47,221 bases of DNA from a virus: the IMG/VR virus record IMGVR_UViG_3300030099_004051, positions 1 to 47,221 of that record. One strand, 5' to 3'. The stretch's first letter is position 1, and every line of letters begins with the position of its first letter. Shown here piece after piece: positions 8,134-47,221 of the stretch. The translations under genes were made by a program, and so were the position numbers. The notes under the pieces were generated by a model, which worked only from the letters and a program-made list of their open reading frames with translations, was not told the origin of the DNA and did not search any database.

Positions 8134-8135
8134 GT

Positions 8136-22100: not shown

Positions 22101-25100
22101 GAGGGTTTCATGATATGACTATAATGTCAGGAACTCCTACCCTAGGAGACTCAGGGAAAATAAGAAATGTACAAGCATATGATTATCAACTTTTATCTCC
22201 TAATTTAGATATAGATACTGTTTTTTCTGCTAATGATCCTGCATATAAAGAAATAATAAGGCTTATAGATTTTAATAAAGATTGGCAAGACTTTATTCCT
22301 GTGTATAAAGATAAATTATCAGGAGCTCATACCTCATCTATTAAATTAAAAGATTCGTTTGAAAATTCTCCTTCTAATATGGGGAGATTAGTTGAAGAAT
22401 TAGAAAAACTAAAACAAAGAGATGCAAGTATTTCAGAACAAGAAAACATGATACGAGATTGGGGAATAAAAAATCACAACGACCCTGATGCTTATCATAA
22501 ATTTAAACACGAACCTTCTTTTAGGTTATCTTCAGCAGAAGCTATCGTATCAATGGATCCTAATAGCCCTATGTCTCTTGTAAATAGACTTCTTAAACGT
22601 TCAGGATATGGTAAAGGGCACAAAAACAATATCCCTAATAGAAATACCACAGAGCATTTGTTAACAAATCCTAATGATGGATTGAAATTATTACATTACA
22701 GATATGAAATAGCAAAAAATAATGGAGGTAGTACTAGTTTTATTCTTAGTGAAATGCAAAAACCTAATTATACAGTACCTAAAGTTACAGATGAAATTAA
22801 AGCACATCTACCTTTTAGGGCAACAAAGATTTTTACTGCAAGTAATGCTGCAGATGCAGTAAAAGAAGCTAAAAGATTAGAAAATGTTATGACACCTTTA
22901 GCTTATACGGCTGCAAAAAACAGTGGTAATAAATTAGGAGCAGGGTTTGATATTCCTATTATAAATGATAGGCATGGTTATGGAATGGTAGATATATTAA
23001 AAAGTATAAGATCTTCTGCAGAATCTAAATATATAAAAGCTAATTACAAAAACGAAAGTGAACAATTTTCAACATTATCAGCATCAAAATTTGATGCTAG
23101 TTTGTATGGTCCTTTGTTGTATTTTAATAAAGATAAATATGTTGTAACAAAATTGTCACAAAAATTTAATAACTATTATAAAGAACCTAATGAAGTATTT
23201 ACTGATAATCCTTTTGATGTAGAAGCAATGAAAAACATAGGGGAAGGATTAGATCAATTAAGTTGGTCCGGTGGAGAAGATAGAAATTTAGATATGGTAG
23301 TTGAAGCAAGAACTTTAGCTGTATTAGAGCATTGGTTTAAAAGCACAATTGCAGGAAGAGATATTGGGTTTTCAGAAAAACCATCTAAACCTGTATTTAG
23401 AAAAATGGTAAATACATATAACCCTAAAGAGGATATGCTTACTTTAGAAGGAATAGAAGAAGTTTTTCCTGATATTTATACTAAAGATTATTGGGTTAAA
23501 AATGATTTTATAAAAGCAGGGATTAATGATGGAACTTTGTTTGACGATTTTATAGATTTATTTTTAAAAGATGTTCCAAAACCTGAAGTAAATCAAACTG
23601 AAGAGTGGGAAAAATTCGCAAGAGGAAATTGGGCTGAGAATTGGGACAAAGGTTATAGAATACAAAATTATTGGCTTCAAGGAATTCAGTTTGAAAAGCA
23701 CACAACAGAAGAAGGGGAAACTTTTTACAAAGCATTTATGCCTGAAGACAAGGTAATAGGTGGGGAACGAGTGATAGTAAACGGAGGAGCTGATAACCAA
23801 ACAGCAAAAGATATAACTGATTCTAATATTGTTTTCCATGAAAATATTCTTAAACAATTATTTGCTTCTCCTGAAAGCAAAGGTTATGATTCAAAACAAT
23901 TTTGGGAAGTTTACGATTACGTAAGAGATAGAATGAGACACTCTACTTTTGATCCTGTATCAGAAAAATCTTTCAGTCCTGCTGTAGAAAGAGAAACTTT
24001 AAATACGATATTAAATAAAGCTATAGAAGGGGGACATAGTAATATTGTACTCCCTACATCTCTAGAAATAGCAATAAGAAATAGTAACCAAGCAGAAACA
24101 GTAAGAGGAATAAGGCAGTTTAAAAATTATGATGATTATCCTAAAATGATGGCATCAATAATGGATCAAAGATTAAAAAGTAAATCATTAAAAGAACCTT
24201 ATAAAAAAGGGGATATTAAAGTAATTCCTTTTGATATTAATAAAAGACATCTTGACTATAATCAAGACGGAGTATTTTGGCAACCTAATGAAAGAAGTTG
24301 GAATGTAAAAATACCACAAAAATTAATTGATAACTATTGGGATTTGAAAAACGACCCTGCTACAGAAGCATCATTTAGGATAGATAACGGAGAAGTTAAA
24401 GCATTAGTTGAACACGGACCCAATGGAGACGGAAATGTAGTTCATGTTTTTCTTAAGCCAAGAGATACTGCTGATATAAGATTAAGAACTTATGTTCATG
24501 AATTATCTCATATGTTAAGAAGAGATTTAGATGATGACGAATTAAGAATAGTTAATGAATATTACGGAGTAAAAGATGGAAGATGGGATACAGAAGCTGA
24601 AGAAGCTTTTGCTCAGGGAATGGAAGATTATTATATAAAAAATAAAACTCCTGATCCTTCTTTAGTAGCTCCATTTAAAAATATGTTAAGAGCACTTCTT
24701 TATTTATTTAAAGTTCATGTATGGGCTGACTTTATTCATGGTAAAAATTTAAATGAATTAAACAAATTATTTAAAAAATTATGGGACGAAATTCCTGATG
24801 ACGTATCTGATGAAAATATAAAAGAATTTTTAAAATCATCAGATATGGAAAGTTTGTCAGACAAAATAGTAGATGCATTTGGTGTTTCTAAACAACAAGC
24901 AGAATCAGGATTAGCTTCAGTACAAGCAAGAGCTGCAAGTTGGTCGAAAAAAACAGGGAAACCTATGTCAGAATGGTGGAACAAAAGAAGTTTTGATGTA
25001 GTAAAAGGAGATGAAAAAACTTTAGATCAATATAAAATACAAGCAGGGGTAGACATAGTTACAAAACAAAATGACAATGCTCTTCCTAATACTATAGGAA

Positions 25101-28100
25101 GTGCAAGAACCGAAGCTGTTTTAGATAAAGTAATAGAAAGAGTTGTAGCAGCTCCAAAATATAGAGATGAAATAGAATCAAATATAAGTAAACAAAGAAG
25201 TATAGAAGCAGGGAGAATTAATTCAGCAATACAATCTTCTCGTCCTATGGCAGGTGGTATAGATGATCCTTTAGAAACAGCATCACGAGCACAAGAATCA
25301 TTAGGAGGAGTTAAACAATCAACTGTTTATTACGAACCATTAGTAGGGTTTAATAAAGAAAAACCTTATTGGGTAGAACCTTTAAATGAAGAAGGGTCTA
25401 TGTTATCAGATGAAATACAAGTTTTATTTAATGAAATTCGTTTACAATATCACGCAAATAAAATAAAACCTTATGATTATACTAATACTAATACAGCATT
25501 AAGAAGAATATTATTTGGAGAAGTTCCTAATAGATATGAAATAGATTTGCTTAAAAAAGTTTTTGGTAAAAAAGGAGAGCAGTTAGGAATAGCTGCTTCT
25601 AAAAAGAAAAATACTACATTAGCAAAGAAAACATGGAATATAGCAACTGAACTTTTATTTCAAACTCCTAAAACTTTAATGTCATCTTTAGATCTTTCAG
25701 GATTGTTAAGACAAGGGTGGTTGTATGCAGTTAACCCTATGCTTTTGCCACAAACTTTAAGAGCTACATCAAATAGTATGTTGTCATTTATTAGTTCTAG
25801 TAGAACTAAATTAATACATGATGCTTTAGTAGACCATGAGTTATTTGAAATGGCAGAGCAATCAGGACTTCAAGTAATTACCCCTGATTCTAAATCACTA
25901 TCAGAAGAATGGGCAACAGTAACTAATAAAAATAAAAGAGCTTTAACTAATTATTTTAATCCCGAATTTAAAGCAGCAGAAGGAGAAGAATTATTTGGTT
26001 CTGAAACAGTAGCTGCTAGATTAGTTCCTTGGGCAAAGATGTCTGAAAGAGGATACACAACTGTATTAAATTGGTTAAGATTCCAAAGGTTTGAACAACA
26101 AATAATGGCAGCTAGAAGGAAAGGTTGGATTCATAAAAGCGATCCGTTTTTGCAAAACAAAGATGGAACTTGGAGAACTCCTGAAGAATCAGGGTTCCAA
26201 GAAATGTCAGACATGGATTTGTATGCAATAACTGACGGAATTAATACTGCTACAGGAGCAGGAAGACTTAACTTTATGTTTGAAAGAAATCCTGATACAG
26301 GGAAACTTGTTCCAAAATCGGGACCTTTTAATAAATTATTTGAATCTACTGTTAATAATATTTTTTGGGCATTTAAATTAGCAGTATCAAGATTTAAAGT
26401 AGTATTGGGAGTTCCTATGATAATACAAAAAGGGAAAAAAATAGGGGGGAGTTCAAGTATTGACAGTAACCTTACTATGACAGGATTTATTGATGCACAT
26501 TTAAAAAGAACAAAATCAGGAAAACCTTATTGGGTAAACATAGAAATGGGGGGAACTTCTTTTTTAAGTAATTCTCCTCTTGCAAAAAAATTAGGGCTAA
26601 CTAAATATTATAATGGAGAAGGATTTGATGTTACATTACCTAATGGAAAAAAATTCGTAATACCTGATTGGGGATTAAAATTAATGCATATCCCTGATTT
26701 TGTAGCAAGTGTAAGTACTTTAGGAGCAGCCTTGTATGGATTGCATCAAACATTTAAGCATTATGAAATTGATGCTTATGTAGGGTATGATCCAAAAAGT
26801 TCTGACTTTGGTAAAGTTGTAGTTGGTCCTGCAAGAGTAGATGTAATAGGAGGGTATGGTCCTTCAATAAGATTTATAGCAAACTTAATAACAGGACAAA
26901 CAGTAACAAGTGGAACAGATAGAGAGTATGAAATTAATAGATTAGAAAGTGCAATGAGATTTTTAAGAAGCAAAGCAAACCCTATACTAGGAAAGTTAGC
27001 AGACTTTATGGAAACAGAATTAGGTGGAGAAGGATTTATGGGGGAGAAGTTTGATTGGACAGAAGATCTATGGGATTTAGTTATAGGTATGAACGCAAAA
27101 GAAAGTGCTGAAATACTTATGAACTCTTTACCTCCTGAAGATGGTGGTAATGCTTTTGTTCCTTGGGCAATGATGGGATTAAGCACATTTGGAGCAGGAG
27201 CTAATCCTTATTTTACTGCTGATACAGTTACTCATACTTATTTTGTAGGGAAAGATGGAACAAGATATAGATTTAGCGAACTAGAACCTTATATGCAATC
27301 ATTAGCAGGGCAACTTGTACCTGATACAGAAAGCATTATTCCTAATACTGAAAGAACTATAGAAGAAGTTATGGATATATACAATGGTAAGTCAGGAAGT
27401 AGAGATGATTTAACTTATCAAGAAGTATTAAAGGCTAGACTATTTAAATTGTCAACATTAGTAGTAGTAGATGAAAATAATAAATGGAAAATTAATGATC
27501 CTAATATAATAGATGCAGTTAAAAGAGGAGATATAACCGGTAGCTCTACTCCACAAGGACCAATCTCTGCAAGTTTATCATGGGAATTATATAAAAAAGT
27601 AATAGATATAGAAAAAGAATGGAACGAAAGAACAGACACTATATTTAATATAAAGTTTGGTCCTAGTCCTGATAAAGATATTAGTAAAATAGAAGATGAT
27701 AATGAAAGAGCTAATGCAGAATATATAGAAGCTATTAAAAATGCAGAATATGAATTAGGAATAAACTCTACTATATACAACGAAAACAAAAAACAATGGG
27801 AAAATAAATATGCTCCTAGATTATCTGAATTAAAAGACAAAGAAGAAGGAAAAAGATTTACAGATGAAGCTATTAAAGCTATAGAAAAAAATCCTAATAT
27901 ACTTAACAAATATGTTACAGAAGAATGGAAGTATACAATGAGAAATCAACACAATAAATCTATACCTTTTGGAGTATTAAGAAATATATTTGCTTACGGA
28001 TATAACAAAGACGGAACTTACAGTAGTGGTTATGTTGCTGCATGGGAAAGATATAGGTTGCCACAAATACTTAGAGAACAGCATATAAAAACATACAATT

Positions 28101-28243
28101 TTGATTCTTTCCGAAGTGGTGTATTAGACATACCTGTACAAGAGGATCGTAAGCTAACACCCGAATTGTTACAAATGATGATATACTATAATATAGACAT
28201 GGACATGAATGGGACGACAAGGAAGGGGTTGCCAATTGAATAA
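19106..28243 (+). CDS. Giant virion-type polyvalent protein, 3045 aa, with HELSH metallopeptidase motif
   Basis: One uninterrupted frame takes up about a fifth of the window; ATG follows AAGGAGATGTA. A zinc-peptidase motif RTYVHELSHML gives H1798, E1799 and H1802, with E1832/E1833 in TEAEEAFA as likely third ligand. The region around residue 2200-2700 (GLLRQGWLYAVNP, SERGYTTVLNWLRF, VDVIGGYGPSIRFIANLITGQ) resembles the C-terminal associated domains of phage large polyvalent proteins, from memory. Such proteins are packaged and ejected into the host. The gap-free position between portal and scaffold supports this. No lysozyme or polymerase motif was recognised. The sequence is even in composition, so no recent fusion is evident. 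Confidence 0.75.
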   Translation: MTAPRETFEDYNPLGYKKRFVPYKTKFEELVPEEYRGSITGPFVTSDFKSLTYPKTSSEILKAFTDFTNPLSWATESAFIGSDTFEKYYDQLILKPQGREGQGMDLAPWQLPFDIASKHPSVHPTARHLSGTLSDATDVNDLLLAYAFGKGPSIKPMGTSAGPWASYFNINPVMPSNLLQQGIKIPTKFPAPMAALGGAISQPIKQVGKTLSDLNELSRIKPFRNTSVDSGIGASGYSPFSQFNKGVRDLDNWTLGNIGKGAVNILEPIVPKNAGYSSLAEWGFEAQMASAQRTMDKQKDPSFWTYAKVYGLGGVGGGLAQARQLALDAKKISSVPQIGKFNFNDSVQLVGKKLNKTLNRWWRSGSVGKSEAHVMDSIADLDNVFTVGKQDKDWTVADFTDNDLILLNHPKNTSESIVLKDLKDVVGAPLILKDIKDFASPIAKAKDSKFSAVPIGSRNKKFDYKVTNNKVFVNINDIDNFKEYFYWINTNVEPKEFKNESTPKLKSILNMFDQMNFDEIVDDVQKYNIDGKSYFNLADVIPAMDNTSRAIRIKTIENQGAFGIGENVADTTIVYSQIRALKDYLLGLTNQMQGVVSEISNKEAEDIEVASNLIHKILDARDAYTYETLIIPLYKRTLEFDKVKFNTLPNRQKDLIIEDWETRFPQSFDELSNLYVYKDDPYKDGKPYSGGPRAYQGNALNVLKRKNPNYYYELWEEFLFHPYNYLEPRSSVGDSRIFPAPFIQGGTSALRGLDFRSFSPRKEQVLTDTILLDELETDVDMWGFPPLVKDMVLDDMVIEEYLKNPWLKFLALSKTLRANKNLLKPKPSTLNKEILLGDYGRYPMPEDPRFEMNQYYGAWKINEEDNFINKNDHVRDALQLLKEIGQQQITVKIRGVDTPIYPYLDFPDFMLHYGQPSFGMGNVKNLELATQYNMNVLTSKTDYGLGMFATKHGQLKGIPQGMIPDTEGLTFEKGVDPEMAMLNSFVSARELLELNTQFRGFHDMTIMSGTPTLGDSGKIRNVQAYDYQLLSPNLDIDTVFSANDPAYKEIIRLIDFNKDWQDFIPVYKDKLSGAHTSSIKLKDSFENSPSNMGRLVEELEKLKQRDASISEQENMIRDWGIKNHNDPDAYHKFKHEPSFRLSSAEAIVSMDPNSPMSLVNRLLKRSGYGKGHKNNIPNRNTTEHLLTNPNDGLKLLHYRYEIAKNNGGSTSFILSEMQKPNYTVPKVTDEIKAHLPFRATKIFTASNAADAVKEAKRLENVMTPLAYTAAKNSGNKLGAGFDIPIINDRHGYGMVDILKSIRSSAESKYIKANYKNESEQFSTLSASKFDASLYGPLLYFNKDKYVVTKLSQKFNNYYKEPNEVFTDNPFDVEAMKNIGEGLDQLSWSGGEDRNLDMVVEARTLAVLEHWFKSTIAGRDIGFSEKPSKPVFRKMVNTYNPKEDMLTLEGIEEVFPDIYTKDYWVKNDFIKAGINDGTLFDDFIDLFLKDVPKPEVNQTEEWEKFARGNWAENWDKGYRIQNYWLQGIQFEKHTTEEGETFYKAFMPEDKVIGGERVIVNGGADNQTAKDITDSNIVFHENILKQLFASPESKGYDSKQFWEVYDYVRDRMRHSTFDPVSEKSFSPAVERETLNTILNKAIEGGHSNIVLPTSLEIAIRNSNQAETVRGIRQFKNYDDYPKMMASIMDQRLKSKSLKEPYKKGDIKVIPFDINKRHLDYNQDGVFWQPNERSWNVKIPQKLIDNYWDLKNDPATEASFRIDNGEVKALVEHGPNGDGNVVHVFLKPRDTADIRLRTYVHELSHMLRRDLDDDELRIVNEYYGVKDGRWDTEAEEAFAQGMEDYYIKNKTPDPSLVAPFKNMLRALLYLFKVHVWADFIHGKNLNELNKLFKKLWDEIPDDVSDENIKEFLKSSDMESLSDKIVDAFGVSKQQAESGLASVQARAASWSKKTGKPMSEWWNKRSFDVVKGDEKTLDQYKIQAGVDIVTKQNDNALPNTIGSARTEAVLDKVIERVVAAPKYRDEIESNISKQRSIEAGRINSAIQSSRPMAGGIDDPLETASRAQESLGGVKQSTVYYEPLVGFNKEKPYWVEPLNEEGSMLSDEIQVLFNEIRLQYHANKIKPYDYTNTNTALRRILFGEVPNRYEIDLLKKVFGKKGEQLGIAASKKKNTTLAKKTWNIATELLFQTPKTLMSSLDLSGLLRQGWLYAVNPMLLPQTLRATSNSMLSFISSSRTKLIHDALVDHELFEMAEQSGLQVITPDSKSLSEEWATVTNKNKRALTNYFNPEFKAAEGEELFGSETVAARLVPWAKMSERGYTTVLNWLRFQRFEQQIMAARRKGWIHKSDPFLQNKDGTWRTPEESGFQEMSDMDLYAITDGINTATGAGRLNFMFERNPDTGKLVPKSGPFNKLFESTVNNIFWAFKLAVSRFKVVLGVPMIIQKGKKIGGSSSIDSNLTMTGFIDAHLKRTKSGKPYWVNIEMGGTSFLSNSPLAKKLGLTKYYNGEGFDVTLPNGKKFVIPDWGLKLMHIPDFVASVSTLGAALYGLHQTFKHYEIDAYVGYDPKSSDFGKVVVGPARVDVIGGYGPSIRFIANLITGQTVTSGTDREYEINRLESAMRFLRSKANPILGKLADFMETELGGEGFMGEKFDWTEDLWDLVIGMNAKESAEILMNSLPPEDGGNAFVPWAMMGLSTFGAGANPYFTADTVTHTYFVGKDGTRYRFSELEPYMQSLAGQLVPDTESIIPNTERTIEEVMDIYNGKSGSRDDLTYQEVLKARLFKLSTLVVVDENNKWKINDPNIIDAVKRGDITGSSTPQGPISASLSWELYKKVIDIEKEWNERTDTIFNIKFGPSPDKDISKIEDDNERANAEYIEAIKNAEYELGINSTIYNENKKQWENKYAPRLSELKDKEEGKRFTDEAIKAIEKNPNILNKYVTEEWKYTMRNQHNKSIPFGVLRNIFAYGYNKDGTYSSGYVAAWERYRLPQILREQHIKTYNFDSFRSGVLDIPVQEDRKLTPELLQMMIYYNIDMDMNGTTRKGLPIE

Positions 28244-35471: not shown

Positions 35472-36863
35472 ATGGCAATAAAATTACAAGGGTATGTCTT
35501 TAAAGATGACGGAACTGCTGTTAGTGGAGCAACAGTACAAGCTTATGATACTGCTGATGATTCAACAGAAGGAAGTGCTGTTACAACAAATTCAGCAGGG
35601 TTATGGACTTACGGGGATATATCTACAGACGGATTATATGATATAAAAATTAGCAGTGGTGGGTCAGTAAGATGGAGAAAAGGAGCAGACAAAAGTACCT
35701 TTAAAGAATTATATATAAGAAATGATACTGCAGCTACACAATCTCCTTTATATGTAGCTAATGCAACCAACAATGCAAGTGTAAAAGTATTAGATTTATC
35801 TAATAAAAATTCTACTAGAGCTGACGGAGATGAAATATATATGTCATTTAATTTGAATGACTCAGCAGGTAATCCACACGAAATGGCTCGTATAACAGCA
35901 GAGGCAGTAGATGTTACAGCAGGAGAAGAAGACGGGCAAATTAGATTTGGAGTTGCTGTTGATGGAACTATGACAGATGTCTTTACTATTAACTCTAGTG
36001 AATCAGCAGGAACTGATATGAACTTAGACGTGTCAGGAGATTTAACTCTTGATGCTGATGGGGGAGATATATTCTTTAAAGATGGTGGTACTACATTTGG
36101 GTCAGCTACTAACAATAGTGGTAACTTAATAATTAAGTCAGGTACTACAACAGCCCTTACTTTTAGTGGGGCCAATGTAACCTTGGGAGGTACTGCAACT
36201 GTAACAACCTTGGCAGAAGTAGGGAGTGATACTGATAAAATAATAATGTCAGATAGTGGAGTTCTTAAATATGTAACAGGAGCTAACCTAAGAAGCTATA
36301 TAGGAGCAGGTACAGGAGATGGAGATATTACAGGAGTTACGATAACTGCTGATGATACTAATACAGCTTCTGATACAGCAGGTAGTGCAGACTTTACTAT
36401 AGCAGGTGGTTCAGGATTAACATCATCTGTGTCAGGAACTACAATAACTGTAGCAGGAGATGATGCAAGTACATCTGCTAAAGGTGTAGCTCAGTTTAGT
36501 TCTGATAACTTTGCAGCATCTAGTGGTACTATAACCATTAAAGATGGTGGAGTAGTAACAGACGAAATAGCAGCAGATGCTATTACAGGAGCTAAGATTG
36601 CTGATGATGCAATTAATAGTGAGCATTATACAGATGGTTCTATTGATACAGCACATATCGCTGACAACCAAGTAACCCTAGCTAAGATGGCAGGACTAGC
36701 AAGAGGTAAGATTATATATGGAGATGCAAGTGGCGATCCTGCAGCATTGGCAGTAGGAAATGCTAACGAAGTTTTAACAAGTGATGGTACTGATATATCA
36801 TGGGCAGCAGCTAGTAGTGGTGTATCAGCAGGAAAAGCAATTGCTTTTTCATTAATATTTTAA
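35472..36863 (+). CDS. Tail fibre or spike protein, 463 aa
   Basis: An N-terminal carboxypeptidase-regulatory/CnaB-like beta domain (about 1-80: YVFKDDGTAVSGATVQAYD) is followed by Thr/Gly/Ala/Asp-rich repeats typical of trimeric phage fibres (ADGGDIFFKDGGTTFGSATN, DGGVVTDEIAADAITGAKIA). Such fibres bind the host surface. The C-terminus (about 400-463) may be a receptor-binding tip. It begins two bases after the nuclease-like gene. Confidence 0.75.
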   Translation: MAIKLQGYVFKDDGTAVSGATVQAYDTADDSTEGSAVTTNSAGLWTYGDISTDGLYDIKISSGGSVRWRKGADKSTFKELYIRNDTAATQSPLYVANATNNASVKVLDLSNKNSTRADGDEIYMSFNLNDSAGNPHEMARITAEAVDVTAGEEDGQIRFGVAVDGTMTDVFTINSSESAGTDMNLDVSGDLTLDADGGDIFFKDGGTTFGSATNNSGNLIIKSGTTTALTFSGANVTLGGTATVTTLAEVGSDTDKIIMSDSGVLKYVTGANLRSYIGAGTGDGDITGVTITADDTNTASDTAGSADFTIAGGSGLTSSVSGTTITVAGDDASTSAKGVAQFSSDNFAASSGTITIKDGGVVTDEIAADAITGAKIADDAINSEHYTDGSIDTAHIADNQVTLAKMAGLARGKIIYGDASGDPAALAVGNANEVLTSDGTDISWAAASSGVSAGKAIAFSLIF

Positions 36864-39334: not shown

Positions 39335-39520
39335 ATGAAGCCGAAGAAAGAAGTTACTGAACAAGACCTAGAGCTTTTGCAAAAGCATATCAACACGACT
39401 AAACTTAGGTTGATTGATATGCAAAATCAATTTAATAAATCACTTGGCAGGATTCGTGGTACAATAGTAATACTCACTTTAGTACTTGCAATTATTTCAA
39501 TAATAGGGTATATAATATGA
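39335..39520 (+). CDS. Small coiled-coil membrane protein, 61 aa
   Basis: ATG follows a strong site (AAGGAGGTTTCGCT). Residues 8-40 form a charged amphipathic helix and residues 43-61 one membrane segment (TIVILTLVLAIISIIGYII) at the very C-terminus. This tail-anchored layout is compatible with a spanin-like or tail-membrane protein. The stop overlaps the next ATG (ATGA). Confidence 0.6.
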   Translation: MKPKKEVTEQDLELLQKHINTTKLRLIDMQNQFNKSLGRIRGTIVILTLVLAIISIIGYII

Positions 39521-40821
39521 ACATGAGAATAAAATTTAAAAGACCTAATATAAAAAAAATCTTAAAAGGTATTGGGAAGTTTATCTTAAATACTTTTACA
39601 GCAGTCACTATCATTGGTGGTGGTACATTAGCATTTGCTAGTTATATCAATCCTGTTCCTTACATTGCAGAGTATTTCCCTAATTTACAATACGAAATTT
39701 ATACACTTGAAACTCTTTACAAAGATGTTAAATGGTGGCAAGACCAAGGTTATATAGCATGGTCTATCTCAGGTGGTATGATTGCTTTAGGTTTAGCTAT
39801 ACATATAAGAAGTATAGGTAAGCTACTTAAAGCTATTAAGTCTTCTCCAAAAGCTATACTTAATTTCCCTGTAAATACTTACAGAAAATTAAGAGCTACT
39901 AGGGATTGGATATTTGACAAGGTAGAGTATCTTAATAGTGAAAGTAAGAAGTGGAGAACAGCATTTAATATAGCTAAATCTCCTTATACATTACTTCGTG
40001 CACTTGGATTCAGTCCACAAATGGCTCTTGGTTTATTAACTGTTGGCTCTACTGTGGGTGGTGGTGTAGTTGTAAACGAAACTGTACTAAAGGATAGAAC
40101 ATTTGAAAACGGAGATGCAGGTATATATGCAGCTCCACACAATATTCCTTCTGAAACCCTTGAGTCAGCTATGATGTTTAGAAAAGAAAATAAAGAAGAT
40201 AATACTTTACGAATTGTCTTAGCAAGTACTCCTGTATCTGAGATAGGAATCTATGATGTGACAATAGGTACAGCATACACTTCATCTACTCTGCCATCAG
40301 GTAAAACTGAAGCAGTATTAGTAGAAGGGACAGATGTATCAGGTGGTACAGCAACCCGGTTACAAATTGGAGAATTGATTTTAGAAAAGTCTAGATGTAA
40401 ATCTTTAGACTTTTCAGATATTAATGCACACACAATTAATATTATTGGTAATGCAAGTGATGGACAATCTATATCTCAGACAGCAGGTACTGCACGAATG
40501 AGAGCAATAGGTGGGGGACACCATCAAGCACAAGCTATGGTAACTAAAGGTGGAACATACGACAGGATATGGATTGATGCTCCTAATAGTGGAGTAAATG
40601 GAAAGGTAGATAAACTTATACTATCTAACCTTTGGACAAAAGGAGGAAGTTGTACCCTAAGACAAATGGATATAGGTACACTTACTATACAATTAAATGA
40701 AGTAGGTCAAGGTAATGGCTTTGACTCTAAAGAATTTACTGTAGCCACAACTGTGACAGCACAGGTGTGGAATGTCAGTAACAATGTGGAGGTATACATA
40801 GCAGAACCTACTACACAATAA
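39517..40821 (+). CDS. Membrane-anchored beta-rich tail-region protein, 434 aa (complete copy)
   Basis: The N-terminal half has hydrophobic segments at about residues 22-42, 79-97 and 168-187, and a basic start (MNMRIKFKRP), so it is probably membrane-inserted. The C-terminal 245 residues are beta-rich and repeat, at about 92 % nucleotide identity, the fragment at 1-760. No family is recognised. It comes after the fibre genes and before the small membrane genes, so a role in tail tip, ejection or lysis is possible. Start overlaps the previous stop. Confidence 0.75.
   Translation: MNMRIKFKRPNIKKILKGIGKFILNTFTAVTIIGGGTLAFASYINPVPYIAEYFPNLQYEIYTLETLYKDVKWWQDQGYIAWSISGGMIALGLAIHIRSIGKLLKAIKSSPKAILNFPVNTYRKLRATRDWIFDKVEYLNSESKKWRTAFNIAKSPYTLLRALGFSPQMALGLLTVGSTVGGGVVVNETVLKDRTFENGDAGIYAAPHNIPSETLESAMMFRKENKEDNTLRIVLASTPVSEIGIYDVTIGTAYTSSTLPSGKTEAVLVEGTDVSGGTATRLQIGELILEKSRCKSLDFSDINAHTINIIGNASDGQSISQTAGTARMRAIGGGHHQAQAMVTKGGTYDRIWIDAPNSGVNGKVDKLILSNLWTKGGSCTLRQMDIGTLTIQLNEVGQGNGFDSKEFTVATTVTAQVWNVSNNVEVYIAEPTTQ
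40062..40821 (+). repeat. Homologous copy of window positions 1-760
   Basis: A gap-free alignment to 1-760 (offset 40061) has about 61 mismatches counted by hand, and the reading frames agree. This marks the point where the window begins to repeat its own start with a diverged sequence. Beyond 40821 the same gene order continues with lower similarity. Confidence 0.9.
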
Positions 40822-40828
40822 AAATAAT

Positions 40829-40908
40829 GGGAGAGGGTTTTTTGGTTCATTCCTTTTAAAGTTGATAATCGTTCTAACTTAAACACAAATAGAATTTTTT
40901 CCTCTCCC
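40829..40908. promoter_or_regulatory. Long-range inverted repeat after the tail gene (module B)
   Basis: GGGAGAGG (40829-40836) pairs with CCTCTCCC (40901-40908) over a 64-nt loop that starts and ends with T-runs. The homologous helix in module A (768-834) differs by an A-T pair where this has G-C, and a ninth pair G-C there is G-T here. The loops are unrelated in sequence. This pattern indicates selection for pairing. Confidence 0.6.
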
Positions 40909-40927
40909 TACAAAGCATGGAGGCAAC

Positions 40928-41080
40928 ATGAAAAAGAAACTACAAATAGGGATCACCTCTATTATCTTAGCTACTAGTATTAGTTATCTTGTACAACATT
41001 GGTTTAAACATAGTGGACTAGAGGATAAAACACTCAATAAACTAGATGATATCAAAGACATATTTAAAGGAGGTAAATAA
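40928..41080 (+). CDS. Small membrane protein, 50 aa (module B)
   Basis: This is the homologue of the gene at 850 with the same length. Start MKKKLQIGITS, hydrophobic segment about residues 9-24, then a nearly identical charged tail (WFKHSGLEDK, DDIKDIFKGGK). ATG lies 5 nt after GGAGG (ATGGAGGCAAC). Stop overlaps the next ATG (TAATG). Candidate lysis-region membrane protein, by context. Confidence 0.7.
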   Translation: MKKKLQIGITSIILATSISYLVQHWFKHSGLEDKTLNKLDDIKDIFKGGK

Positions 41081-41238
41081 TGAATTGGATTGCAAAGATT
41101 AGGCCACAGATATTCTTAGCTATAATTATATTAGGAGCTATATCTTTATATGCTCTTAAAGTAGGTTATGTAGAAGTAGCAACTGCTACTATAGGTGGAT
41201 TGATTGCATTAGGAATGAAAGTCTTGGAGGCAGATTAA
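41080..41238 (+). CDS. Small hydrophobic protein, 52 aa, holin-like candidate (module B)
   Basis: This homologue of the 1002 gene keeps N-terminal IRPQIFLAI and C-terminal GLIALGMKVLEAD, with two hydrophobic stretches. Start overlaps the 40928 gene stop, and its own stop overlaps the thermonuclease start (TAATG), so three genes are translationally chained. The conserved length of 52 residues despite sequence change supports a real function. Confidence 0.65.
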   Translation: MNWIAKIRPQIFLAIIILGAISLYALKVGYVEVATATIGGLIALGMKVLEAD

Positions 41239-41597
41239 TGTTTACTTATGATTGCGAAGTAACTTATGTAGTAGATGGTGACACTTGTGATGTCACCATA
41301 GATTTAGGATTTAAAATATTCCACAAAGCAAGGATTAGATTGTATGGTATAAATACTCCTGAATCTAGAACTCGTGACAAGGAAGAGAAGTATCGTGGGC
41401 TACAGGCTAAAGCTAGGTTTAAAGATCTAATTAAAGACAGGCCTACTAGATTAGTTAGCCATGGTAAAGGAAAGTATGGTAGAGTACTTGGGGAAATATT
41501 ATTTGAATCTAAAAATTTAAAAGATAATTGGATTAACATAAACAAACAGCTTGTCAAAGAAGGTCATGCTGTAGAATATTATGGAGGTAAGAGATGA
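41238..41597 (+). CDS. Staphylococcal-nuclease-like (thermonuclease) protein, 119 aa
   Basis: The OB-fold nuclease motifs are clear: VVDGDTCDV (D13, D15), ARIRLYGINTPESR (R34, E42) and KGKYGRVLGEI (R82), matching the catalytic Arg-Glu-Arg and calcium-binding layout of SNase. These enzymes cut DNA and RNA with Ca2+. There is no signal peptide, so it would act in the host cytoplasm unless released by the holin-like neighbours. It is absent from module A. Start overlaps the previous stop. Confidence 0.85.
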   Translation: MFTYDCEVTYVVDGDTCDVTIDLGFKIFHKARIRLYGINTPESRTRDKEEKYRGLQAKARFKDLIKDRPTRLVSHGKGKYGRVLGEILFESKNLKDNWININKQLVKEGHAVEYYGGKR

Positions 41598-41932
41598 AAA
41601 GTAATGATATGGCTTTTGATAGGTTTACATCATGTTTATGGTGTGAAGACAATGATGGTTTAATGAAACCAAATTTATATGATTTTAGTACTATTGATTT
41701 TAGTGAATTAGCATATCGATTTGTAGAGATGTTTCAGCCTAGCACAGTAAACACAAAAGAAAAACGAGAAAAATTTTTAGACAATGAAGAAGAATATTAT
41801 AAGTTTTTTGATGAAGAGGTATTAAAATATGGAGGAAAACTTAAATATTTTTTAAAAGTATTAGAACTGCAATCAAATCAAATGCAAACTCATATGCTAG
41901 AACATATATATTATGAGTTGGAAATAAATTAA
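41594..41932 (+). CDS. Unknown acidic protein, 112 aa
   Basis: It overlaps the nuclease stop by 4 nt (ATGA) and is preceded by GGAGGTAAGAG. Sequence is rich in Glu, Phe, Tyr and Leu and mainly helical; two Cys (CLWCEDND) lie near residue 14. No membrane segment and no known family. It has no module A counterpart. It travels with the nuclease gene, so it may be its partner or inhibitor; that is a guess. Confidence 0.6.
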   Translation: MKSNDMAFDRFTSCLWCEDNDGLMKPNLYDFSTIDFSELAYRFVEMFQPSTVNTKEKREKFLDNEEEYYKFFDEEVLKYGGKLKYFLKVLELQSNQMQTHMLEHIYYELEIN

Positions 41933-41946
41933 ATTGGAGGTAAGAG

Positions 41947-42129
41947 ATGAAGAATCTCATGCAGGCATATAACTTAGTCAAGAGGTATGGTCATGTTATT
42001 GGTGAGGTAATTAAACTTCTAGAGATAGTGGAAGCTAGTGGTAAGGATAAGAAGTTAACTACCAAAGAAAGAAGCCAAATCATGAAACAACTTTGGCAAA
42101 TAGTTTATGCTATCAAAGGTCAAATTTGA
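41947..42129 (+). CDS. Small helical protein, 60 aa (module B homologue of 1177-1362)
   Basis: ATG follows GGAGGTAAGAG. It shares VxxYxxVIxxxxxLLExVExSGKDKK-type spacing and TKERSQIMKQLWQIV with the module A protein. The stop overlaps the TTG start proposed for the nuclease gene. Function unknown, but its conservation next to holin-like genes in both modules hints at a shared role. Confidence 0.65.
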   Translation: MKNLMQAYNLVKRYGHVIGEVIKLLEIVEASGKDKKLTTKERSQIMKQLWQIVYAIKGQI

Positions 42130-42665
42130 TTAAGTTAAAGTTTAATCAAGCATTAATTGACGAAGCTTTAAGTAAGTCAAATAAAATAGGAACTTTAAAA
42201 GACTCTTTTACAAAAGGTAAAGGACAGTCACAGGGATTGCTTGCAGAGTTTGCAGTCAGAGAACATTTTAAACATTTAATAACTCCTAATGAAAATATTT
42301 ATAACAACGATTTAATAATTGCAGGGTATAAAGTAGAAGTTAAAGCTAAGAATTACAAACAAGTTACAGATAATTCTGAATGGTCTATTGCAAAAACAAG
42401 TCAACATCAGAACCCTGATTATTATTTTTTTGTTAGTGTAAATCACAAAGGTACTATCAATAACACTTCTGAAATCTTATTAGCAGGTTATATAACTCCT
42501 CAAGATTTTTATAACAAAGCTAGGTTTTATCACAAAGGATATCAACATGAATATGGATTTACTAATACAGGTGGTAAATCTCCTACAGATCATTACAATG
42601 TGTATCAACACGAATTAGAAAAGTTTAAAACTTCTGAAGAAAAACAATTAAAATTAAGTATATGA
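42126..42665 (+). CDS. PD-(D/E)XK restriction-like nuclease, 179 aa (module B only)
   Basis: TTG at 42126 overlaps the upstream stop (TTGA) and follows AAAGGT; an earlier in-frame TTG at 42093 is possible. Motifs: E41 in LLAEFAVREHF, D62 in NNDLIIAGYKV, and E71-V-K73 in YKVEVKAKN, the D...ExK core of restriction-type nucleases. The C-terminal half contains QHQNPDYYFFVSVNH, a strand-helix typical of such folds. It could degrade host DNA or act in recombination in place of the Cas4-like enzyme of module A. Confidence 0.65.
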   Translation: MIKLKFNQALIDEALSKSNKIGTLKDSFTKGKGQSQGLLAEFAVREHFKHLITPNENIYNNDLIIAGYKVEVKAKNYKQVTDNSEWSIAKTSQHQNPDYYFFVSVNHKGTINNTSEILLAGYITPQDFYNKARFYHKGYQHEYGFTNTGGKSPTDHYNVYQHELEKFKTSEEKQLKLSI

Positions 42666-42684
42666 AGGGAAAAACCATAAAAAA

Positions 42685-42716
42685 CCATCGATTTTAAGGG
42701 GTCTTAAAAGTTTTTT
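42685..42716. terminator. Hairpin terminator after the module B plus-strand genes
   Basis: TTTTAAG (42692-42698), loop GGGT, CTTAAAA (42703-42709), then G and six T. The larger arms CATAAAAAAC (42676-42685) and GTTTTTTATG (42710-42719) enclose it. It sits in the convergent gap between the plus-strand nuclease gene and the minus-strand operon, matching the terminator at 1361-1426 in module A. Confidence 0.6.
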
Positions 42717-42771
42717 ATGTACTAAACTATACTAAAAATTTTTAAGTGGCCTTTATGAAGACCTTATTTTC

Positions 42772-42786
42772 CCTTCAGTAGAGCTA
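42772..42786. repeat. Outlying copy of the CCTTCAGTAG repeat
   Basis: CCTTCAGTAGAGCT matches the short repeat family of the control region (12536-13306) but stands alone in the convergent gap of module B. It overlaps the stop of the small TM gene on the minus strand. Confidence 0.5.
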
Positions 42787-42918
42787 CCCAATTTGCAAAC
42801 ATACAACTGCAAATAAAACTACTACAATCGCTATGTATAATTGAGCACGCCTGATATCTTTTTCTATTTCTTTATTTCGCTTATTGTGATTACTGTTTTT
42901 TGTTCGCCTTTTTTGCAT
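42784..42918 (-). CDS. Small single-pass membrane protein, 44 aa, overlapping RusA (module B)
   Basis: ATG at 42918 follows AGGAGA with 8-9 nt spacing, inside the 3' end of RusA in another frame (55-nt overlap). It begins MQKRRTKNSN, is very basic to residue 24, then has one membrane segment (LYIAIVVVLFAVVCLQIG) to the end. The combination of ribosome site, basic start and clean membrane helix argues for a real gene. The module A locus has no equivalent. Possible holin or antiholin type; not shown. Confidence 0.5.
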   Translation of the reverse strand: MQKRRTKNSNHNKRNKEIEKDIRRAQLYIAIVVVLFAVVCLQIG

Positions 42919-43250
42919 TTTTCAAAATCTCCTGTAATTTTTACATAGCTAGGTGAATCATCTACAATTAGACCGGCATTTACTATGCCGTCTAATGTAG
43001 CCTTCATTCCAAATATAAGATTATCAACATCGACATCTCTATTATTGTGAAACATATATTCAACATGAACCTTTCCATCTAGTTTGTCAATGCCTGCCTC
43101 TCTCATTGCGTCTTTGGTCAACCACATAGCCATCTCTTTTCTCTGTCTTCTAAGGCTATTAAGTGTTTGATAGTGTGCTCTAGTATTACCTCTGATTTGT
43201 GCAGGTGGAATGTCATAGAGAATAATGTTTAATATTTTTGGTGCCTCCAT
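42864..43250 (-). CDS. rusA: RusA-family Holliday junction resolvase (module B)
   Basis: The product is 128 aa. Same motifs as module A: PPAQIRGNTRAHY, D74 and D76 in DVDVDNLIFGMK, D87, D97 and D98. The N-terminus overlaps the upstream gene by 38 nt. Overall similarity to the module A enzyme is only moderate outside the motifs, so the two are old homologues rather than a recent duplication. It resolves four-way junctions during recombination-dependent replication. Confidence 0.9.
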   Translation of the reverse strand: MEAPKILNIILYDIPPAQIRGNTRAHYQTLNSLRRQRKEMAMWLTKDAMREAGIDKLDGKVHVEYMFHNNRDVDVDNLIFGMKATLDGIVNAGLIVDDSPSYVKITGDFEKCKKGEQKTVITISEIKK

Positions 43251-43524
43251 ATTTTGCTGTCCTTTTTATATAAGTATAATCTACTCCTGCAACATCTGTC
43301 CAATAAGACCCACAGTAATATTTATTATACCTGTCACTGCAATTTATGCAAACACCATTAAAATATTCAGGCCCTTCTTGTTGGTACCCACCTTTTAATA
43401 TAGCTCCTAATAAATTAATAATAGGATCATTAGTAGGACAATTAATTACTTTATCTTTTCTAACTTCTTTCCAAGGCTTTAAAGAATATTTATTTCTAGC
43501 TTTATAATTACCACCACTTGGCAC
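43213..43524 (-). CDS. Small protein related to N-terminal domain of the 2029-3087 protein, 103 aa
   Basis: The start is GTG at 43524 just after the upstream TAA, with AGGAGAAGAATAA as ribosome site. Residues 28-85 align in pattern with the larger module A protein (QQEGPEY, YWTDV). Four Cys (CPTN, CINC, YCGSY) give a possible zinc site that the A version lacks. The 3' end overlaps RusA in another frame. No known family. Confidence 0.65.
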   Translation of the reverse strand: MPSGGNYKARNKYSLKPWKEVRKDKVINCPTNDPIINLLGAILKGGYQQEGPEYFNGVCINCSDRYNKYYCGSYWTDVAGVDYTYIKRTAKYGGTKNIKHYSL

Positions 43525-43803
43525 TTATTCTTCTCCTAAATATTTAAAACAAGTTTGTCCGTCATTGTGTCCTGTGTGTCCTATCCCTACTCTGTATTTT
43601 AATACTTGTTGTATATCTTTATCTATTAAAGGTTCTGCATTTTTTAAGAAATTATATACCCAATCTCTTGCTTGTTTCCAACTTGCGTGTGGACTCTTTA
43701 AAGAAATTGGTAGTACTAATTCTAATTTATAAAACTGATCTGTGTCTTTATCTTCATGGATAGGACAGTCATCAATCTCGAAGTCGTAGTAATGATTAGC
43801 CAT
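43525..43803 (-). CDS. Unknown protein, 92 aa
   Basis: ATG at 43803 follows GAGGAGCAAT and overlaps the upstream stop. N-terminus is acidic (YYDFEIDDCPIHEDKD), the middle is helical with Trp (ASWKQARDWVYNFLKN). No module A counterpart and no family recognised. It lies between the ATPase and the RusA-linked gene. Confidence 0.55.
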   Translation of the reverse strand: MANHYYDFEIDDCPIHEDKDTDQFYKLELVLPISLKSPHASWKQARDWVYNFLKNAEPLIDKDIQQVLKYRVGIGHTGHNDGQTCFKYLGEE

Positions 43804-44923
43804 ATTGCTCCTCTATTTCTTTGTGTATAATTTCTTCTAGTAATCTGCTGTTATTATTAGATAAACTTTCTATGCTTACTTTATCTGTAATATTATAAGC
43901 TTGTTCATCTATGTGGAATTTCATATTAAATACCCTAGGATTTTCTTTCTTACTATTCGTTTTAGTATGCTTTAATACAACTTCCATTTGATTATTAATT
44001 TCATCTACTTTACTAGTTACAGACCACAAGTTTCTTGCAAGGTTTACTTTGTATACTGTTCCTATTGGAGAATTTGAGTTACCTTTTGAAACATGATCGA
44101 TACCTAGTATACTAACTCCTAAACTTCTTAAGCAATTAGCTAACTGCATTGAAGCCTCTGAGTCATTAATCTCTCCTGCTAAAGCACCACCAAAACTATC
44201 TATAATAATAAGTTTGATATCGTTTTCTACTATCATGTCAGCTATTGTATCTTCTTCATTAACAAACTTATCTTTAGCTCTGTAATATAAAAATTCTATA
44301 TTAGCTATGTCAGGGTGTACTTCTACCAATCCTTTCTTAACTGCTCTTAATCTTTCATTAAGATCTTCAGGATCACTTTCCCAATCTATATACAATACAT
44401 TACCTTTATCAGGGGCAAGTCCTGCATAAGACTTGCCTGATTGTACTAACAAACCAAACAGCACAGACAAGTATGATTTACCTGACCCACCTGCACCATA
44501 GATAATGTTGATTGCATTTTTACGAATGAATGGAAAGATATAATGTTTCTCTTCGTTTACTACAGGGGTATTACCAATTAATACTGATTCCATATTACCA
44601 CCTTTATATTTAGAAACATTAACTACTAACTGTTCCATTATTCTAGGCCAATCAATATCAGGAAAATAATCATCTGTCATTTCTCTTAATGCTTTTATAA
44701 TAGTATTAAGAGATTGTTGTGAAGTAAGATTAATTTTTCTAATCATTAAATGATTACCAAGATTTGTATCTATTATTTTTTGTGGTAAGTATTCTATAAG
44801 AACTTCTCCTGTAAGACCCGTGCTACTCTTGTCACTTATTTTTCTTACAACCATTTTAATTCCATCACTTTCCCAAGTGAGATATATCTTACTACCTGTT
44901 GATTGTACTATTGGTTTACTCAT
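43796..44923 (-). CDS. RepA/KaiC-like P-loop ATPase (module B)
   Basis: The product is 375 aa. Walker A GAGGSGKS at residues 143-150, VLYIDWES (177-184), and a Walker B-like LIIIDSFGG. Homologue of the module A ATPase but with a canonical P-loop (SGKS against SSKS), without the Cys loop and without the C-terminal winged helix; it ends EEIIHKEIEEQYG. Probable replicative helicase or loader. Tightly packed with overlapping genes on both sides. Confidence 0.8.
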   Translation of the reverse strand: MSKPIVQSTGSKIYLTWESDGIKMVVRKISDKSSTGLTGEVLIEYLPQKIIDTNLGNHLMIRKINLTSQQSLNTIIKALREMTDDYFPDIDWPRIMEQLVVNVSKYKGGNMESVLIGNTPVVNEEKHYIFPFIRKNAINIIYGAGGSGKSYLSVLFGLLVQSGKSYAGLAPDKGNVLYIDWESDPEDLNERLRAVKKGLVEVHPDIANIEFLYYRAKDKFVNEEDTIADMIVENDIKLIIIDSFGGALAGEINDSEASMQLANCLRSLGVSILGIDHVSKGNSNSPIGTVYKVNLARNLWSVTSKVDEINNQMEVVLKHTKTNSKKENPRVFNMKFHIDEQAYNITDKVSIESLSNNNSRLLEEIIHKEIEEQYG

Positions 44924-45128
44924 TTTTTTCTATCTCCTTTCTTAAGTCTTCTAGTATTTTTTCAAAGATAGATATATCAGTAGCAACTCTTTGCATTCTA
45001 TCTTCAAACAATTTATGCTCTGTATCGTGAGTATTCATTAGTGATCTTCTGTCTTCTTTTAACTTATCTATTCTTTCTACTACTTCATCTTCTCTTAATT
45101 GTAACCTTTCTTTATAGTAATTAGACAT
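44916..45128 (-). CDS. Coiled-coil small protein, 70 aa
   Basis: Almost entirely charged heptad-like helix (VVERIDKLKEDRRSLMN, IFEKILEDLRKEIEKNE). ATG overlaps the upstream stop and its own stop overlaps the ATPase start. It occupies a position with no counterpart in module A. Possible oligomerisation partner for the ATPase; inference only. Confidence 0.6.
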   Translation of the reverse strand: MSNYYKERLQLREDEVVERIDKLKEDRRSLMNTHDTEHKLFEDRMQRVATDISIFEKILEDLRKEIEKNE

Positions 45129-45405
45129 CTATCCCTCCTGTCCATTTCTTTTTGTTTTTAAATTTATCAGTTTGTTGTGGAGAATTTAATAGAAACTCAA
45201 AGTCTTTCTTATTTTTTTCCACTAACTTCTGCATTTTTTCATTAGCCTCTCGTGCATTTCCAAAAGCTAATCGTGATCTCATATCAGCACTAGCTATTAG
45301 GTCATGTAGTTTTAATATAGTTTTACTTTGTTCTTGTATTATTCTCAGATGCTCTAAGTTTTCTACAGTACAACTACAATGCTCATGTAATATTAAATCA
45401 CTCAT
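45121..45405 (-). CDS. Homologue of the ADMRSRLAFGNA protein, 94 aa (module B)
   Basis: Residues about 40-75 (ASADMRSRLAFGNA, EKMQKLVEKNKKDFEFLL) are nearly the same as in the 4531-4866 protein, while the N-terminus is unrelated and has three Cys/His (HEHCSCT). The start overlaps the upstream stop (GAATGA). The very high conservation of this one segment between otherwise divergent modules suggests a strict binding function. Confidence 0.7.
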   Translation of the reverse strand: MSDLILHEHCSCTVENLEHLRIIQEQSKTILKLHDLIASADMRSRLAFGNAREANEKMQKLVEKNKKDFEFLLNSPQQTDKFKNKKKWTGGIDV

Positions 45406-45629
45406 TCAAGTGCACCTCCTGCAGGATATCTTTTGTCTAGTTTAGCAATTAATTTATCATTCTCAACCAAACAAATAGTTGCTAATGTTTCTACATCTTG
45501 TATTGTAAGATCTGAATCAACAACATCAATTAATTCTACTGTGCCATCGTAAGTTTTTACTCCTTTAGTAGAAGTACTTACATTGATTCTAACTCTAACT
45601 CTGCTTTCGCCTTTAACTTCGCTTTCCAT
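45402..45629 (-). CDS. Unknown small beta-rich protein, 75 aa
   Basis: ATG at 45629 after ATAGGAGGTAAC is the real start; the longer frame begins inside the terminator hairpin. Residues 5-45 alternate charged and hydrophobic (RVRVRINVSTSTKGVKTYDG), then a short helix. Upstream is the structured 228-nt RNA region (45657-45861), so its expression may be controlled by it. No family recognised. Confidence 0.6.
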   Translation of the reverse strand: MESEVKGESRVRVRINVSTSTKGVKTYDGTVELIDVVDSDLTIQDVETLATICLVENDKLIAKLDKRYPAGGALE

Positions 45630-45656
45630 GTTACCTCCTATTAATAACATTGTAAA

Positions 45657-45684
45657 AATAACGCACCCATTCAAGTGCGTTATT
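45657..45684 (-). terminator. Intrinsic terminator or attenuator before the 45629 gene
   Basis: AATAACGCAC (45657-45666), 8-nt loop, GTGCGTTATT (45675-45684): a perfect 10-bp stem. On the minus strand it is followed by TTTTT. It ends about 28 nt before the ATG of the downstream gene, in the position of an attenuator behind the three-way-junction element. Confidence 0.65.
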
Positions 45685-45729
45685 ATTTTTGTAAAACTTT
45701 TTTATACCTTTTTTCATAACATAAATAAA

Positions 45730-45815
45730 GGAGAGTAAGTACGAGATAAACCTAAGGACAAAACAAATTCAAAAAACCTTAGGTGCTCTGCAACCAACAG
45801 AAGTACCTACTCTCC
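45730..45815 (-). ncRNA. Three-way-junction structured RNA candidate
   Basis: The outer stem pairs 45803-45815 with 45730-45742 over 13 bp. Read on the minus strand all 13 pairs form, with one G-U; on the plus strand the same position is an A-C mismatch. Inside are two more stems: ACCTAAGG/CCTTAGGT (45750-45757 with 45777-45784) and TCTG/CAGA (45787-45790 with 45798-45801). It lies in the minus-strand operon between the SSB-like gene and the attenuator. Strand-specific pairing supports a transcribed RNA. No known riboswitch class is recognised. Confidence 0.55.
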
Positions 45816-45818
45816 GAT

Positions 45819-45861
45819 AATAATTTAATCATCTCTACTTGTTTGAGATGATTAAATTATT
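45819..45861. repeat. Perfect 17-bp-stem hairpin at the end of the SSB-like gene
   Basis: The arms 45819-45835 and 45845-45861 are exact reverse complements with a 9-nt loop. The right arm includes the stop codon of the 45857 gene. There is no long T-run after the stem on the minus strand, so it may block 3' exonucleases or be a processing site rather than terminate. Confidence 0.7.
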
Positions 45862-46471
45862 GAGTTAAATAACCATAAAAGTTATCAGCATTAGTAACTA
45901 TATCTTCCATACTATTGCTACCATCAGCTAATTTATTATCTAACTTTGCAACTTCTATATCAACTGCAGCTTTAAGTGCTACTGATCTAGCTATTTGTTG
46001 ATCTTTATTTGTTACTGTAGTTTGACTTGCTACTTGCATAGGTGCCTCCTTTGGCTCTGTTAAAAAGTCTTTAGGTTCTTGTGTTTTATTTGCTGTACTG
46101 ATTTCTCTAACACCATCATAATCTGTGATAGCCATGATTTCCCAATCCCAATTGTGTTTTATAAAAGAGCCGTCAGCATTGCGACCTTCTTTTATAACAC
46201 CTTCTCTAGTTTGACCTAGTCTTCGTCTTCTCATTGCTACTGTATAAGACTTGCCATTTTCTACTCTTCCCATTGATTGTGGGATCCAATATTTTTTAGC
46301 ATAGTACTTATCTATCTCTTCAACTTTAGCCTCAATTTCAAATTGTTCTTTACCAAAGTTGTTGGAAGGTATACAACTAATGACATCTAACTTTACTTCG
46401 TATAGTTCGGGATCACTAGATTTTGGTTCGGGTGGGTTTGTATTTATTATTGCAGGTATTTGATTTACCAT
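45857..46471 (-). CDS. Putative single-strand-DNA-binding-like protein (module B)
   Basis: The product is 204 aa. Homologue of 5672-6283: MRRRRLGQT, HNWDWEIM and an N-terminal beta domain starting near YEVKLDVIS. The linker here is Thr, Lys and Glu rich rather than PQ repeats. ATG at 46471 follows GGAGTAGTAA and lies 56 nt inside the upstream gene. Its 3' end forms the 17-bp hairpin. Role as SSB is inferred from fold character and neighbours. Confidence 0.5.
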   Translation of the reverse strand: MVNQIPAIINTNPPEPKSSDPELYEVKLDVISCIPSNNFGKEQFEIEAKVEEIDKYYAKKYWIPQSMGRVENGKSYTVAMRRRRLGQTREGVIKEGRNADGSFIKHNWDWEIMAITDYDGVREISTANKTQEPKDFLTEPKEAPMQVASQTTVTNKDQQIARSVALKAAVDIEVAKLDNKLADGSNSMEDIVTNADNFYGYLTQ

Positions 46472-46823
46472 TTACTACTCCTATTTTTTTATTATTAGTA
46501 ATTGTGTATTGAGTAAATTGACCATACTTACTAGCCTCTTTCAGAAAAGTATTATCTTTAGGAATTAAATCATCAATGAAGAAATACTTTAATGTAACTC
46601 CATGCCTACTTACTATTTCTCCTTCGTATGATTCAAACCAAGGCTTAGTAAAGACATAGGTATCGGGATAGATTCTTTCATTATGCTTATTCGTTTGTGT
46701 TATCTGAACATGAAGTTCATCGCAATTTTTTAAACGACTAGTTGCAATACCAATCATTCTTTTCTTTGCACTTCCATTCCAAATAGGGGTGCGAATATCA
46801 TAGTTATGAATAACTTGTGTCAT
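46416..46823 (-). CDS. PIWNG-motif protein (module B), 135 aa
   Basis: ATG at 46823 after AAAGGAGAGAAAG gives MTQVIHNYDIRTPIWNG, matching the module A start; a longer frame upstream is ignored. Shares DELHVQITQT and YPDTYVFTKPWFE with the 6288-6566 protein, then extends 45 residues further, ending in a Lys/Asn/Thr-rich tail that overlaps the SSB-like gene by 56 nt. Function unknown. Confidence 0.6.
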   Translation of the reverse strand: MTQVIHNYDIRTPIWNGSAKKRMIGIATSRLKNCDELHVQITQTNKHNERIYPDTYVFTKPWFESYEGEIVSRHGVTLKYFFIDDLIPKDNTFLKEASKYGQFTQYTITNNKKIGVVNGKSNTCNNKYKPTRTKI

Positions 46824-46840
46824 CTTTCTCTCCTTTATTA

Positions 46841-47077
46841 TTATACCACATTTACTCTTTTCCACCAACTATCTACATCTTCGCCATTTTTGCATTGTTC
46901 TAATGTACTTGTAATACCATTGATTAACAAGTATCTTATCATCGCATCTATCACAGCAAATCTATCTGTTCTGCATGGGATTCCTTGATCGTTTATATCA
47001 CAAGATAATCCTAGTGTAATATCTTTGCCTAATTGTGCTAGTTGTTTTATTTCTTTTTCACTTAAAACACCTGCCAT
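46841..47077 (-). CDS. Unknown small protein, 78 aa
   Basis: ATG at 47077 follows AGGAGGTGTGAC; the ribosome site lies in the loop of a small CACAC/GTGTG hairpin (47080-47099), so its access may be regulated. The protein is helical with three Cys. No module A counterpart and no family recognised. Confidence 0.55.
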   Translation of the reverse strand: MAGVLSEKEIKQLAQLGKDITLGLSCDINDQGIPCRTDRFAVIDAMIRYLLINGITSTLEQCKNGEDVDSWWKRVNVV

Positions 47078-47115
47078 GTCACACCTCCTCTTTTGTGTGA
47101 ACTTGGATTGATAAA

Positions 47116-47221
47116 TTATTCGCTTTCTATACTATCTATTACGTAATCTCCTCTTTCTTTTTCTGTTGCAAACCACATTGCATCTTCAACTTCGGTATAA
47201 CCATTCTCTTGATAATTAAAT
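47116..47221 (-). CDS. 3' part of the module B homologue of the 9844-10095 gene (cut by window edge)
   Basis: Minus-strand frame open to the window end, stop at 47116. It encodes ENGYTEVEDAMWFATEKERG and then DYVIDSIESE, identical to the module A protein up to the DY and different after it. The 79 identical bases (47143-47221) end exactly at the window end. The gene's start lies outside. Confidence 0.8.
   Translation of the reverse strand, partial: FNYQENGYTEVEDAMWFATEKERGDYVIDSIESE
47143..47221. repeat. 79-nt exact repeat, copy 2 (window end)
   Basis: Exact match to 9865-9943. It begins where the two modules converge on the same sequence and stops at the last base of the window, as expected where an assembler halts at a shared k-mer. 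Between the modules I found no other exact match of similar length. Confidence 0.9.

Follow-up and report, generated by a model that had tools for sequence, protein, structure and literature searches.

The analysed window, the whole 47,221-base IMG/VR virus record IMGVR_UViG_3300030099_004051, is an assembled metagenome contig that carries two diverged versions (A and B) of one replication module. Its sequence is of two ancestries with a defined switch point, and in its relatives the two modules occupy the same position, in single copy. We consider it likely (probability about 0.86) that the contig runs more than one lap around a circular or permuted map of about 40 kb, passing from one strain to the other, and is an assembly chimera; the join was most likely made by the assembler rather than by recombination.

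Two versions of one gene order

An earlier note on this DNA had read 40062–47221 as a restatement of the gene order of 1–9943, and protein homologues in collinear order, beginning with the two small membrane proteins and ending at the 9844-type gene, bear this out, far beyond chance. Its figure for the tail gene (about 92%, gapless over 760 bases) agrees with direct measurement: 1–760 and 40062–40821 are identical at 699 of 760 positions (91.97%) without gaps, and the 61 differences comprise 45 at third, 13 at first and 3 at second codon positions. Comparison of the window with itself by blastn extended the tail-gene match to 1–1045/40062–41123 at 85%, a large direct repeat, and returned one further, shorter repeat piece within the ADMRSRLAFGNA gene and an exact 79-base repeat (9865–9943 = 47143–47221). 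Similarity does fall along the copy, as had been noticed, from 92% DNA identity in the tail gene to 28–53% protein identity between the A and B replication-gene pairs. A pattern scan for the exact window start (41 bases near position 20–60) found no match.

1–760, + strand: 3' part of the tail-region gene, A copy, cut by the contig start; counterpart of 40062–40821
850–1002, 1002–1160 and 1177–1362, + strand: A, two small membrane-protein genes and a helical-protein gene, with B homologues
39517–40821, + strand: tail-region gene, intact, B copy (98% amino-acid identity to G001, 99% to G004)
40928–42665, + strand: B, two small membrane-protein genes, an SNase-like nuclease gene, 41594–41932, the helical-protein gene (41947–42129) and 42093–42665

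The small membrane-protein genes pair as 850–1002/40928–41080 and 1002–1160/41080–41238, and the helical proteins (1177–1362/41947–42129) are 42% identical. The SNase-type nuclease (41238–41597) and the genes at 41594 and 42093 are present in B with no counterpart in A. In record G007 an intact tail-region gene runs on into the A module. The product of 39517–40821, which had no family match, shows 87–99% protein conservation in G009, G011 and G015, phages that otherwise have unrelated cores or cores about 70% alike; judged from these sequences, the gene seems to move as one unit.

Two strains in records from other metagenomes

With the Rep proteins, the terminase, the tail gene and a structural protein as queries, about 80 loci were collected; the full sequences of the informative records were taken, and their similarity to the window was scored per 500-base block. 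Strain A records (G007 and G014) are mostly 94–100% similar to the window where they overlap it, from 501 to ~36.5 kb, with some blocks falling to 76–92%. Strain B records (G004 and G025) are mostly 98–99% similar from 36.35 to 47.07 kb (93–100% per block), and 67–80% similar to the window core where they align at all; strain B has a core of its own, about 70–77% like that of the window. G004 and G025 agree at 99.91% over 9,679 bases and hence represent the same strain. The segments of the contig thus match different independently assembled strains, A to 36.5 kb and B from 36.35 kb, as in a chimera, and the earlier suggestion that the contig ends in another strain's module gains support, since separate strains carry A and B.

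10117–36350, no strand assigned: strain-A core (early genes, terminase, structural genes), mostly 94–100% to G007, L010, L011 and G014

The tail end of G014 is 98.8% similar to G007, which has the order tail gene, A module, early genes, terminase (99% amino-acid identity). Together, G025 and G004 give core, B tail, B module, early genes and terminase. A-type (G007) and B-type (G001) records were both found in metagenome 3300030117. The first 500 bases of the A copy are 93% similar to a B record versus 88% to G007, which indicates that the strains are themselves mosaic. None of the relatives matched 20.0–23.5 kb in the block comparison; a single 3,045-aa open frame (19106–28243), with no Pfam or PHROG match, spans this stretch.

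Switch from strain A to strain B

Block similarity changes from A records to B records within 36.0–36.5 kb, and matches at the level of single bases narrow the passage further.

36351–36552, no strand assigned: passage from A to B, inside the tail-fibre-like gene 35472–36863 (base-level match to strain records)

G014 follows the window to 36551, with isolated differences at 35903, 36107, 36173 and 36440, and then diverges, so that it equals 36351–36551 except at base 36440. B records G025 and G018 are identical to the window over the 202 bases of 36351–36552; G025 is diverged upstream of 36351 (about 77% over 33.0–37.2 kb; 67–77% per block) and identical from 36351 to 36811. These 202 bases form the longest exact run between the A part of the window and any B record, and with the independent A record G014 the uninterrupted A/B identity is 89 + 111 bases because of base 36440. 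On either count (202 or 89 + 111 bases), the switch lies in a near-identical stretch of at least k-mer length. The junction had previously been sought at 40000–41000, which is wrong, as independent strain records put the change at 36351–36552. A junction at 40000–41000 is rejected, the tail gene being continuous there and matching B records on both sides; by its record matches, 36.4–40.06 kb already belongs to strain B.

Repeats and weak family matches suggest that the gene 35472–36863 is tail-fibre-like. Within it, a patch at 36210–36552 is 92–100% similar across several lineages, the sequence on either side being diverged. Short pieces of this patch recur at 92–98% in the otherwise diverged G008 and G013, and the G008 contig ends inside it; the patch is likely both a recombination site and an assembly fork. 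Scanning a 65-base piece of the switch stretch retrieved no record with an A core upstream and a B tail downstream.

One module per genome

G007 carries the A module between tail gene and terminase, and G004 carries the B module at the same place. All other records have a single set of the module genes, with the tail gene on one side and the terminase on the other, so A and B are alternative alleles of a single locus. Among more than 20 other records, no tail gene, RusA, Rep, SSB or terminase is doubled, and both modules share a molecule in none of these independent records; the window alone has the tail gene, RusA, Rep and SSB twice, its terminase not being doubled. The relative G009, whose two ends overlap exactly over 77 bases and close it at 36.7 kb, has one each of tail, RusA and Rep genes.

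G004, G008 and G010 have different start points and one gene order. The map is supported as circular or circularly permuted and about 40 kb long, a description that covers a physical circle and headful permutation alike, and relatives with one module at one place uphold the earlier reading to this effect. Lap lengths, obtained as sums of segments with closing pieces from other samples, are 36,573 + 3,329 (from G014) + 75 = about 39,980 for A and 33,592 + 5,317 + 532 = about 39,440 for B.

Gene content of the two modules

1680–2072, − strand: A, RusA-like Holliday junction resolvase (phrog_1682, E 9e-9)
3212–4534, − strand: A, RepA-like AAA_25 ATPase (Pfam AAA_25, E 4e-9)
4531–4866, − strand: A, ADMRSRLAFGNA protein (53% over 68 aa to 45121–45405)
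4839–5681, − strand: A only, PD-(D/E)XK/Cas4-like exonuclease (phrog_298, E 2.5e-35)
5672–6566, − strand: A, putative SSB-like (5672–6283) and PIWNG (6288–6566) proteins (28% and 34.5% to B homologues)
8136–8999, − strand: A, DUF932 protein (PF06067, E 4e-19)
42864–43250, − strand: B, RusA-like resolvase (phrog_1682, E 2e-12)
43796–44923, − strand: B, RepA-like AAA_25 ATPase (AAA_25, E 2e-21; 100% amino-acid identity in G001–G004)
45121–47077, − strand: B, ADMRSRLAFGNA protein, 45402, putative SSB-like protein, PIWNG protein and 46841, collinear with A

The RusA-like proteins (1680–2072/42864–43250) are 38.5% identical, and profile matches to phrog_1682 and phrog_34 confirm the name that both copies had been given from the letters; a Pfam search with the two gave no match, and the only PDB match to RusA was dismissed as chance. 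The RepA-like ATPase name likewise holds for both copies, AAA_25 scoring 36.9 bits (A) and 77.1 bits (B) against a curated cut-off of 27. The ATPases are 30% identical (E 1e-44), and in the PDB they matched RadA only, weakly. The SSB-like name goes back to the earlier reading of the letters and is putative: the pair (5672–6283/45857–46471) is 28% identical (E 3e-13), and neither member matched an OB-fold/SSB profile, a PHROG or a Pfam family. The PIWNG proteins (6288/46416) are 34.5% identical, and the pair 2029/43213 is a weak match (29%, E 0.001).

All genes of both modules are open frames. The B block of the window is shorter than the A block; it is without the DUF932 protein and the genes at 7019, 7615, 9138 and 9423, and protein comparison found in it no counterpart of the exonuclease (4839–5681). 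In G004 and G002 a DUF932 homologue (33%) is encoded past the B module, which indicates that the B block of the window is truncated. B records match it to 47065 and carry other small genes beyond.

The shared gene at the contig end

9844–10095, − strand: small exchangeable cassette gene (98.8% over 9865–10116 in G008 and G010)
9865–9943, no strand assigned: exact 79-base repeat, inner copy (= contig end 47143–47221)
47119–47221, − strand: cassette gene, B copy, cut by the contig end (G008 and G010 carry all 103 bases unchanged)

The first 24 bases of 47119–47221 differ from the 9844 copy and the remaining 79 are equal; the encoded proteins are 100% identical over 26 aa. G008 and G010 are otherwise about 70% alike, yet both contain the 103 end bases followed by sequence onward, and share 9865–10116 as a whole at 98.8%. 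Such near identity in diverged phages points to a shared small cassette. In G007 other sequence occupies its position. The C-terminus of the product is exchanged, DYYERYSK in A and DYVIDSIES in B. That the 79-base repeat is nothing but a k-mer overlap left by the assembler is unproven: the closing overlap of G009 is 77 bases long, and G008 and G010 have a near-identical cassette, so that biology alone can explain the repeat.

Assembly chimera and rival explanations

The contig is strain A from 1 to about 36.4 kb (tail-gene end, replication module and core). In a chimera, the assembly path would then cross to B in the 202-base near-identical stretch of the tail-fibre-like gene, follow the B tail genes and B replication module past the starting point of A, and break off after 79 bases of a small gene, nearly unchanged in several strains and also present at 9844–10095. 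In de Bruijn assemblers a conserved region hides which flank pairs with which (PMC11443906), and virome assembly is hampered by strain heterogeneity (PMC5610896). A literature search for strain joins in tail-fibre genes found no such case. The longest shared run, 36351–36552, is also where homologous recombination is expected, which is a point against a chimera. Counted on the same side are the shortening of the A/B identity to 89 and 111 bases with G014, the closing pieces taken from other samples, the unmatched 20.0–23.5 kb and the mosaic first 500 bases.

Tail-fibre genes are usual sites of recombination, which speaks for a natural recombinant, the main rival though an improbable one. Here an A core with B tail and module would form a ~37.3-kb circle (9865–47142), and 1–9864 would be the remnant of a co-occurring A parent with the same core, so the two modules are still on separate genomes. 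Improbable to the same degree is a viable recombinant in which everything from the tail fibre to the replication module was exchanged as one piece between strains with cores ~25–30% different, through crossovers in the fibre patch and the cassette gene. The contig end would suit this history, for it equals the start of the shared core exactly (9865–9943), as when a second path re-enters the core, and G008 and G010 run on from the end sequence into 9944–10116 at 98.8%; the records also show much mosaicism. However, a small cassette gene recurring in diverged phages explains the shared end equally well, and the scan with the 65-base piece gave no record that joins an A core to a B tail. The recombinant circle would moreover be without DUF932, a gene that G004, G002 and G005 carry no more than about 5 kb past the B module and that G007 and G023 have in the A module itself, and without the 9138-type gene, which follows 47065 within ~700 bases in G001 and within ~1.2 kb in G002.

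That a single genome of at least 47 kb holds two diverged replication modules, one per end, is highly improbable. Both modules do lie on one contig with all their genes as open frames, but the module is single in every relative, the closed 36.7-kb genome included, the locus that holds A in one strain holds B in another, and neither the ancestry switch at 36.4 kb nor the cut gene at the contig start is explained. Terminal redundancy of a headful-packaged genome would place the same genes at both ends, and about 47 kb against about 40 kb is roughly 118% of a unit; such redundancy repeats identical sequence, whereas the copies here range from 92% in DNA to 28–53% in protein and come from different strains, a divergence that refutes it and leaves it next to no probability.

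Relation to known systems

The assembly chimera favoured here resembles described inter-strain chimeric contigs (PMC11443906), in which two strains are joined where k-mers cannot separate them, and differs from them in that the window also overruns its own start and so holds both alleles on one contig. As a feature of one genome the double module is very unlikely, and what remains is ordinary. The record should neither be treated as a genome of 47 kb nor cited in favour of duplicated replication modules, and about 7 kb too much enters any length, completeness or gene count based on it. Useful by-products are the two alleles of a replication module whose locus is fixed and the conserved patches in the fibre gene and in the cassette gene, both of them places where assemblies fork and recombination is likely.

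Lambdoid phages provide a precedent, as replication modules are exchanged in modular (mosaic) fashion between related tailed phages. Common to both cases are non-orthologous or strongly diverged modules at one locus between conserved flanks. Unlike lambdoid phages, the phages here are unclassified, with a terminase only about 25% like those of cultured phages; a host search through the terminase in genome contigs found no relative.

Two smaller features of the window may be added. At 45432–45590 the B module departs from G004 in a variable patch, the remainder being about 99–100% identical. Inverted repeats between genes, at 3087–3168, 13727–13772 and 45819–45861, are 77–84% complementary and could possibly be terminators or regulatory hairpins.
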